Assembly (NCBI GenBank): GCA_947172415.1
Contig: OX359201.1
Coordinates: 6,002,501-6,066,500 of the forward strand
DNA length: 64,000 bases
Source: Chondrosia reniformis
Lineage: Eukaryota; Porifera; Demospongiae; Chondrillida; Chondrillidae
Direction: 5' to 3'
Position 1 is the stretch's first letter; every line of letters starts with the position of its first letter. Below the pieces are notes generated by a model. That model worked only from the letters and a program-made list of their open reading frames with translations, was not told where the DNA came from and ran no database searches. The position numbers were made by a program, and so were the translations under genes. Positions 37,501-40,500 of this stretch are shown here, piece by piece.

Positions 37501-40500
37501 TCATCCCAGCAGCACGCCATACAGTCTGGTGACTCAACCTTACCACCTGTCAGTATCACTACATCTGGGAGCAATCTATACTTCTACATAGGAGTATACC
37601 TAGGACTTGCCGCTACTAATTCGGTATGCTCAAAAGAATTAAAATTAAAATATTCAGGCAAAATTCCCCAAATATTCTAAGAACAATTAATTTTATAAGT
37701 TGTAAGCTTAACACACAATTAAATTACAATTTATAAATATTTGGTTTTATAATTACAGGTGTTTACTCTGTTCCGAGCATTCTTGTTTGCTTATGGAGGA
37801 ATATGTGCTGCTAAGGTGTTGCACAAGAAGTTACTGAAGGCAGTCTTGCATGCTCCAGTCATGTTCTTTGACACCAACCCTGTGAGGAACCAGAACAAGC
37901 ACCTGTCAGATCACATGACGTTATTTTAATCTAAAACACCATTTTCTTACATACTACATCTTTTCTACAGTAAAAGGCCTATAGGGAACTAAACCTAGTG
38001 AGAGCTTTGGATAAGGATACAAGAGTTTTCTCTTTATTCTTCTGCTCCACTGGGCCAGACAGCTGTTGGGAATTTCACCCTTCATCAGTGACCCTGGAAA
38101 ATATTGATATAAAATAAAATATATTCTTCTCTTTCTTTACTGTAGATTGGAAGAATAATCAACCGTTTTTCATCTGATGTGGTTAGTTGAAAGTTATATC
38201 ACTCCATTAGGGGGAATGGTGTAATGTTATGGTCTGTTTCTTGTCTGTAGTTTACCATTGATGATTCACTTCCCTTCCAGCTTAACATCTTCCTTGCTCA
38301 GATTTTCAGTCTTCTAGGTACTCTGACAGTTGTGTGTTACAGTTTACCCTGGATAGCTCTTCTTCTTGTACCACTGGCAATGATATATTATAAAATACAA
38401 AAATATTATAGACATACTTCAAGGTAAGCTGGTAGCGAGTTGAACTATTAAATAGTTTTATAAATTAAGTATATGTAAGGCGTATGGTCAACTGTGTAGT
38501 CGACTGTGTTTCGCAGCACGGAATAAACTGTGCATCATAGATCAGTAGAAAACGCGTATGTATACGTCACACCTACGTTATTTGCGTGTCGATGCGTTTA
38601 TAAGCCGTGTGCGAGGTAAGGCGAACGTCACGATTTTTCGACCACAAGCGTTTCCAGAGCAAAGCATTGAAGACTAAGCACCGAAAATTAGTCCGCATCG
38701 CTTCATGGCCTCTTGGCTAAGATCAAGTAGAAATAACTGTTCTTATCAGTGTAACAACTGATACGTCCCCTTCGGGGGACTAGTTGTTCCTCAATTTTTG
38801 AGAACAGAGGAGAGTTCAAAGCTTGCTTTGACCTCCTCGCGGGTTGCCCCAGTATTGCACCCACCTCTGGGAGTGGCCCATCCCCTTTGGGGAAATAAAA
38901 AAAAAAACAGTGAAAAGAGAAGAAAATCCAACATTCTTTTGTTAAAAATGTTGACAATTATTTGAGGTTGGTATAGGCTATGCAGCTAGTGTTAATGGGA
39001 GTAAAATAATTTGACAGACTGTATGCAAATGTCTAGGATAGTCTTTCTAATACATAATACTTTCCTTTGATCTCTGTATTCTTTAAGGGAGTTGAAGCGC
39101 TTTTCATCCGTGACCCTCTCTCCCATCTATGCGCACTTCACTGAGACACTGACAGGACTGCAAGTTGTCAGAGCCTTTGGAGAAAGTGCCAGGTTTGCTA
39201 GAGAAAATGAGCAAAGATTAGAAATAAACCAGAGAGCCTTATATGGAAGTAAGAATATTTATGTAAAAACGGGGGTTAAATTGATATAACAAATGTTCTC
39301 GATGTTAGCCTATGCTGCATCCTATTGGCTCTCCCTGAGACTCCAAATGATTGGTGCATTCATCATCTCATCAGCTGCCTTTATAGCAGTGTTGGAGCAC
39401 CACTTTGGCTTTATAGATCCAGGTATATATAGTCAAATATAGGAGATTGACATTCACTTTTGATGTAATGTTTATATTTACATTTTACAGGACTGGTAGG
39501 TTTAGCCATCAGTTACTCTTTATCGATCAACAGCTTAATATCTCAGGTAGTTGTGTCATTTTCTGAGACAGAGAAGGAGATGGTCAGTGTGGAGAGAGCA
39601 GTGCAGTACATTGACACTATGCCTGCAGAAACTGATGATGGAACAGCACAAGTTTGTATAGCACATCAAATCACCATTTACCTGTAGATATTGAACTACC
39701 CATGAGGCCAAGGAAAGATAGACTAAAACACAATTTTCTGGACTTGTATATCACTTAGGGCAAATCTATCCTAGGGCAAAGGGGATGGTGTTCCTATACT
39801 GTCCTTTTTTCTGTCACTAATGAACCATGCATTATAACACTTTAAGGGAAAGTCACCAATACATTATATAGCCGGTACATGTGAAGTCACTGAATTTGTC
39901 TATATAGTTTAAGTCATCTTAATGTCCATTATATTATCTATATCATTACATTTGCTAGTGACCTACTTATTACTGTATCCTCCCTCTTAAGGTATCCCCG
40001 AATTGGCCCCAGCGAGGTTCAATAAAGTACAGAGGCGTTGTTTTACGCTACCGTCCTGGCCTTCCTCCTGCTCTTAGGGAAGTCAGCTTTTCCATTGCTA
40101 GTGGAGAAAAGGTCAATCCCATATGATGTGATGGACTATTTAATAGCTATCTATGAGACTCTGCTAATTTTGAGGAGATCGACTCTAAGGTGTATTTTCA
40201 TGTTTATACAGATTGGTATAGTAGGACGAACAGGTGCTGGAAAATCAAGCCTTTTCCAAGCTCTCTTTAGAATAGTTGATCTTGTATCTGGTACAGTGTA
40301 TTTGGATGAAGTGGATATCTCTACTGTTCCCCTACAAAAACTAAGGTATCCTGAAAGTAACCTGCCTGCCTGCCTGCCTGCCCGCCTGCCCGCCTGCCCG
40401 CCTGCCCGCCTGCCCGCCTGCCCGCCTGCCCGCCTGCCCGCCTGCCCGCCTGCCCGCCTGCCCGCCTGCCCGCCTGCCCGCCTGCCCGCCTGCCCGCCTG

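Follow-up and report, generated by a model that had tools for sequence, protein, structure and literature searches.

The ordinary U2 snRNA of the demosponge Chondrosia reniformis very probably has an altered branch-point recognition sequence

The bases through which U2 snRNA pairs with the branch site rank among the least changeable in eukaryotes, and the title of one paper on the stem-loop in which they lie reportedly calls them invariant. The U12 snRNA pairs with the branch site through a different sequence, and SF1, U2AF and SF3B1 are proteins acting in branch-site recognition. The part of U2 that reads the branch site is displayed in the branchpoint-interacting stem-loop, BSL (PMC11482624, PMC8357632, PMC9935549). 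Apart from the case reported here, the sole U2 with a replaced branch-point recognition sequence met in the literature searched is that of Leishmania major, with UUAUAA in place of GUAGUA (PMC4950102). Among animals, the tunicates are described as a lineage with altered core splicing components, affecting U2AF, m6A in U1 and U6, and the GT/AG rule (PMC13326754). In the sponge, by comparison, U2 is changed where it reads the branch site; the introns studied here were chosen as GT-AG. The open-licence literature searched gave no paper on an animal U2 with an altered branch-point sequence.

The locus described here lies in the window, a 64,000-nucleotide stretch of chromosome 13 of C. reniformis, an animal whose genome is reported to be intron-rich, with 7.20 exons per transcript (PMC12181767). 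The U2 spliceosomal snRNA gene (38697..38886; all window features given with coordinates for this gene are on the plus strand) is the sole Rfam match in the window at the gathering cut-off and is full length (RF00004; score 127.1 bits, cut-off 46; model positions 1-192; E 1.9e-25). It was recovered at the same place in the genome-wide search, and its RNA folds 5 SD below shuffles (z -5.08), which confirms the U2-like snRNA originally predicted at 38697..38884. The U2 hallmarks that the same prediction had called intact are borne out by the Rfam match, the fold, the paired stems and, for the Sm site, the sequence: the 5' end, IIa, IIb, the Sm site, III and IV are all present. Stem-loop IIa (38744..38763, from Rfam) shows no variation among copies, and its loop, GUGUAACAA, resembles the yeast IIa loop. 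Stem-loop IIb (38765..38780) is followed by AUUUUUG (38794..38800), invariant in all five full copies, which we take from its sequence to be the Sm site, and then by stem-loops III (38807..38838) and IV (38841..38879), while stem IIc (38753..38788, nt 57-63 with 86-92) is the alternative to IIa. After stem IV comes a CCCC-UUU-GGGG inverted repeat (38882..38892), whose CCCC-loop-GGGG stem is retained in the five full copies with a loop in four versions, and which might serve as a signal for the 3' end or form an additional terminal stem. The exchange between IIc and IIa has been described for U2 (PMC11482624). In size, 5' end, the U6-facing CUAAGAUCAAGU, the flanks of the BSL, IIa, IIb, IIc, the Sm site, III and IV, the sponge RNA is the same as canonical U2 (RF00004; human, yeast). 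Like U12 it has a different branch-site-pairing sequence, but its best clan match over the full length is U2. It differs from the U2 of L. major, whose Sm site is described as off the metazoan consensus and whose lineage trans-splices, in being otherwise conventional (PMC4950102). Leishmania is a precedent outside animals, and the sponge case is a real U2 variant in a demosponge.

The departure from canonical U2 is confined to the loop that reads the branch site. Nucleotides 33-38 read AGAAAU where canonical U2, like the Rfam consensus at the site, has GUAGUA, as the original prediction had stated and both the sequence and the Rfam alignment confirm; the altered loop, AGAAAUA at nt 33-39 (38729..38735), is identical in the five full copies and in a fragment found elsewhere in the genome. 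The flanks are intact: the sponge has GAUCAAGU-AGAAAUAA-CUGUUCUU, against a canonical GAUCAAGU-GUAGUAU-CUGUUCUU, which agrees with the Rfam consensus. Between AAGU and CUGUU, canonical U2 has GUAGUAU and the sponge AGAAAUAA, one base longer, and by alignment the change would amount to one inserted base and about three substitutions. Rfam aligns GAAAUA (nt 34-39) to GUAGUA, and GUAG persists two bases upstream, at nt 31-34. To call the sequence "replaced", as was done originally, is fair, yet with GUAG kept at nt 31-34 several pairing registers are possible. Three come into question: a two-base shift that uses the remaining GUAG (UUCUA-A-C), pairing in place (AUUUC-A-U), and the register of the Rfam alignment (UAUUU-A-C). 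By minimum free energy, the variant and canonical segments both fold as a BSL, here predicted at nt 24-47 (38720..38743; pairs 24-26/45-47, 28-29/42-43 and 31-32/40-41) with AGAAAUA as the loop. Since 66% of 3000 random middles equal or exceed the variant in fold stability, this fold indicates compatibility and is no sign of selection. When U2 was sought by a pattern with fixed flanks and a free middle, three eukaryotic U2s in contigs of bacterial bins all had GUAGUA, and control scans of plasmids and viral contigs contained no U2.

The search for all U2 loci covered 117,379,552 bases in 15 contigs, 14 of them large and one a mitochondrial contig of 17,451 bases. The genome-wide Rfam search, in which 46 of 5491 first-look candidates were scored, gave six U2 matches above the cut-off, five full-length copies on three chromosomes and one fragment, and a DNA search returned the same six loci. 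Besides the window copy on chromosome 13 (C13, plus strand), the full-length copies are three in a row on the plus strand of C3 (8103923, 8107068 and 8109599) and one on the minus strand of C4 (268751); the fragment lies on the same strand of C4 (250972-251152). All six carry AGAAAU and share GATCAAGTAGAAATAACTGTTCTT, AGUAGAAAUAACUG is identical in every copy found, and nt 1-65, variant included, are invariant throughout, whereas full copies diverge by as much as 21% over nt 66-188. The C13/C4 and C3 copies form classes that differ at many sites past nt 65. The C4 fragment matches the full C4 copy over nt 1-65 and upstream, including an element at -56, then departs from U2, and judging by this it looks like a broken duplicate. 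GUAGUA was absent from every copy, so the window gene is classed as a U2 variant, and with all six matches variant and no canonical GUAGUA U2 among them in the 117.38 Mb assembly, the variant is the norm of the assembly. Many canonical U2 genes, which the original prediction had named as evidence against itself, were not found there (none of six). We consider it very probable that the window gene is simply one of five full-length U2 genes and that the ordinary C. reniformis U2 carries the changed branch-point recognition sequence. It is conceivable that a canonical U2 lies outside the assembly, for which the genome note gives a BUSCO completeness of 71.1% (PMC12181767).

The differences between copies were examined in a pairing test of the five full copies (42 pairs, 210 pair cells, 500 shuffles), in which 209 of the 210 cells hold standard pairs. 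Four of the 42 pairs, one in IIb, two in III and one in IV, are changed on both sides, and the differences between the C13/C4 and C3 copies in these stems mostly preserve pairing. The eight both-sided cells compare with a shuffled mean of 3.2, and neither this number nor the covariation score was reached in any of the 500 shuffles, but the plain count of both-sided pairs was matched by 122 of them; the changes set one class of related copies apart from the other, and the changed cells therefore go back to few events. The stem AACAACT/AGTTGTT, originally put forward as covarying, turns out to be the known stem IIc (nt 57-63/86-92), which has no both-sided change among the five copies, 34 of its 35 cells being paired and one broken. 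IIb has one broken cell as well, and the third C3 copy (8109599), where both IIb and IIc contain a broken pair, may be decaying.

Upstream, ACCACAA (38641..38647 in the window) stands at exactly -56 in all six U2 copies. Between positions -150 and -65, the copies on C13 and C4 and the first two on C3 are 0.16-0.40 identical; between -43 and -3 the figure is 0.23-0.45. The second and third C3 copies have upstream sequence in common (0.89 and 0.97 identity), as do the fragment and the full C4 copy; with these counted together, the six copies represent four unrelated upstream contexts. Downstream, the first two C3 copies are alike (0.83). Because ACCACAA occurs 18 times on both strands of the window, its presence at -56 in six of six copies is far beyond chance. 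We read it as a putative snRNA promoter element, presumably similar to the PSE, which is expected near -55. The variant genes would be transcribed by the usual snRNA route, and their RNA would form normal IIa/IIc, BSL and U6-facing structures, with the BSL loop presenting AGAAAUA to the intron.

Several readings would make the variant something other than the species' ordinary U2. An assembly or sequencing artefact is exceedingly improbable, as the sequence is identical in five loci on three chromosomes and the genome note reports a consensus quality of QV 69.8 (PMC12181767). A pseudogene origin of the window copy, as a well-preserved relic of a canonical U2, might be suggested by its solitary position in an intron, by the A-rich stretch past its 3' end and by the broken pairs of another copy, C3:8109599. 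It is nevertheless very improbable: no canonical parent was found in the assembly and all six matches share the variant, the -56 element is present in the window copy, and its stem differences from the C3 copies mostly keep pairing. Random decay, unpaired stem changes and promoter loss, the marks of a pseudogene, were not found for the window copy. A specialised U2, serving a subset of introns beside a canonical one, would account for an altered loop in an intact body, but we hold it to be very unlikely too, given that none of the six matches in the 117.38 Mb assembly is canonical and that nt 1-65 are alike in every copy. With five full loci and the fragment all variant and none canonical, two of the three readings originally offered, the specialised U2 and the pseudogene, become unlikely, and the third, a U2 tuned to this lineage, stands. 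From sequence comparison, a U2 that carries the variant in all its copies is most likely the ordinary U2 of the species and neither pseudogene nor isoform.

If the variant is the ordinary U2, the sponge spliceosome may follow a rule of its own in reading introns, and the variant makes it testable how much U2-branch-site pairing a metazoan spliceosome needs. Branch sites were sought in introns from two sources. Homology gave 53 introns, mapped from five CCT genes and the ABCC gene, of which 42 were left after removal of 11 with low margin or score and 38 after removal of four that were repeat-masked. A gene finder predicted 135 more, and exclusion of introns below 54 nt from the total of 173 left 170 for testing (38 homology, 132 predicted), 105 of them with a far region. 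Seeded on long open reading frames, the gene finder scored four ABCC exons at -8 to +4 in their true frames; reseeded on homology exons, it placed between 21 and 29 of the 42 reference introns exactly, varying with order and iteration, with the reference genes included in its training set. The introns were chosen as GT-AG, with one GC candidate, a GC-AG intron of 68 nt (GCAAGT) that is the fifth mapped intron of CCT gene L040. Repeat arrays occur in introns of the CCT and ABCC genes (L038, minus strand, 1758-3663; introns of L041 and L042; window 40361-40541 and 40736-41131), and some of these intronic arrays form long open frames that mislead gene finders.

Across the 170 introns, no branch-site word was clearly enriched by k-mer, EM, duplex or register tests, while the pyrimidine fraction at -18..-4 was raised (0.64 against 0.52). 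CTRAY, a word of the canonical type, stood at 0.147 near the 3' end and 0.106 in the far region in all 170 introns (CI of the difference -0.021 to 0.109). It was nominally enriched in the 132 predicted introns (0.167 against 0.090, CI 0.001-0.151), stood at 0.079 near against 0.187 far in the 38 homology introns, and neither CTAAC nor CTGAC occurred near the 3' end in any of those 38. KTGAY (0.282 near, 0.174 far, CI of the difference 0.007-0.201) and ATattTaCt, the second-best unsupervised motif in the predicted introns, are faint candidates, and so many words were tried that no branch-site candidate is significant. CATGTGAY, from the homology set, was rejected as a branch-site word, as it derives partly from local repeats. 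Duplex energy was not above shuffles, with a near-minus-far value of -0.384 against -0.285 for permuted oligos (SD 0.262). For the variant U2 the best of 16 registers was that at nt 34, the Rfam register with branch site UAUUU-A-C, but its z of 1.9 is not significant and, with 16 registers scanned, a hint at most; canonical U2 at register nt 33 gave z -0.6.

Genome-wide, heptamers were counted 8-30 bases before TTNCAG, with expectations from a 602,810-base sample. TTCTAAC occurred 408 times against 470 expected (error 84; ratio 0.87), TACTAAC 497 against 621 (error 97; 0.80) and TATTTAC 1189 against 1273 (error 139; 0.93). Relative to words of equal composition, the rates come to about 0.92, 0.78 and 1.15, respectively, within or close to sampling error. 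A reversed-pattern control gave 676, 424 and 858, respectively, and was set aside since the reversed words differ in frequency. Among the first 100 matches listed for each word, the gaps of 8-13, 14-19, 20-25 and 26-30 bases held 31, 36, 21 and 12 for TTCTAAC, 29, 25, 26 and 20 for TACTAAC, and 19, 32, 36 and 13 for TATTTAC, against 144, 116, 96 and 104 of 460 for anagrams of TTCTAAC; repeat families within the gap lists mean that no conclusion follows from spacing. None of the three heptamers stands out, and the branch site either is degenerate or takes a different form. Branch sites complementary to the variant loop, which the original prediction had proposed to look for, did not emerge as a clear motif from the 170 introns or the genome-wide heptamers.

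How far recognition has changed with the loop can be read in two ways. The loop may have changed and recognition hardly at all, with degenerate sites, weak U2 pairing and a dominant role for the proteins SF1, U2AF and SF3B1 and for the pyrimidine tract, and the GUAG kept at nt 31-34 may find partners in CUAAC-like sites through pairing shifted by two bases. This is compatible with the variant being the species' ordinary U2 and agrees with the lack of a clearly enriched word in the 170 introns, the nominal enrichment of CTRAY in the predicted ones and the raised pyrimidine fraction; mammals, too, are described as combining a strong tract with a weak branch point (PMC3033335). Against it, no copy varies in the loop even though the 3' two thirds of the RNA have diverged, a pattern that suggests constraint; at nt 31 and nt 32, the shifted registers reached only z 0.6 and 0.2; and TTCTAAC is not enriched. 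We would rate this reading a little below an even chance. Alternatively, an intron-rich animal could have rewritten the U2-branch-site pairing rule transcriptome-wide, with AGAAAUA (pairing, for example, with UAUUU-A-C) in place of GUAGUA, introns shifted to match and probably SF1, SF3B1 or TAT-SF1 changed as well, a scenario we take seriously and yet hold to be somewhat short of probable. A more specific proposal is doubtful: a branch helix with G34 beside the bulged A, as in the Rfam register, might favour U-rich sites like UAUUU-A-C(U), with some tolerance for mismatches and with the pyrimidine tract assisting at the 3' end.

As to its setting, the U2 gene was originally described as nested in an ABCC10 intron, and it does lie in the sense direction within an intron (38424..39087, same strand as U2) defined by the only phase-consistent GT-AG pair between two exon anchors, in an ABCC-type transporter gene whose exons were matched to ABCC structures. 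The GC-rich 5' flank claimed for it is indeed richer, but only moderately so, with a GC content of 0.44-0.48 at 38500-38699 against 0.24-0.42 at 38100-38499, the latter including an exon end. Directly downstream of the ABCC gene is a serine carboxypeptidase gene with matches to lysosomal protective protein (about 42681-45924, plus strand). Arrays of a satellite with a unit of roughly 170 bp, in up to about 61 copies, lie beside genes on this part of chromosome 13 (window 1-1436, 7663-9984, 11080-11403, 12469-13132 and 17049-27475).
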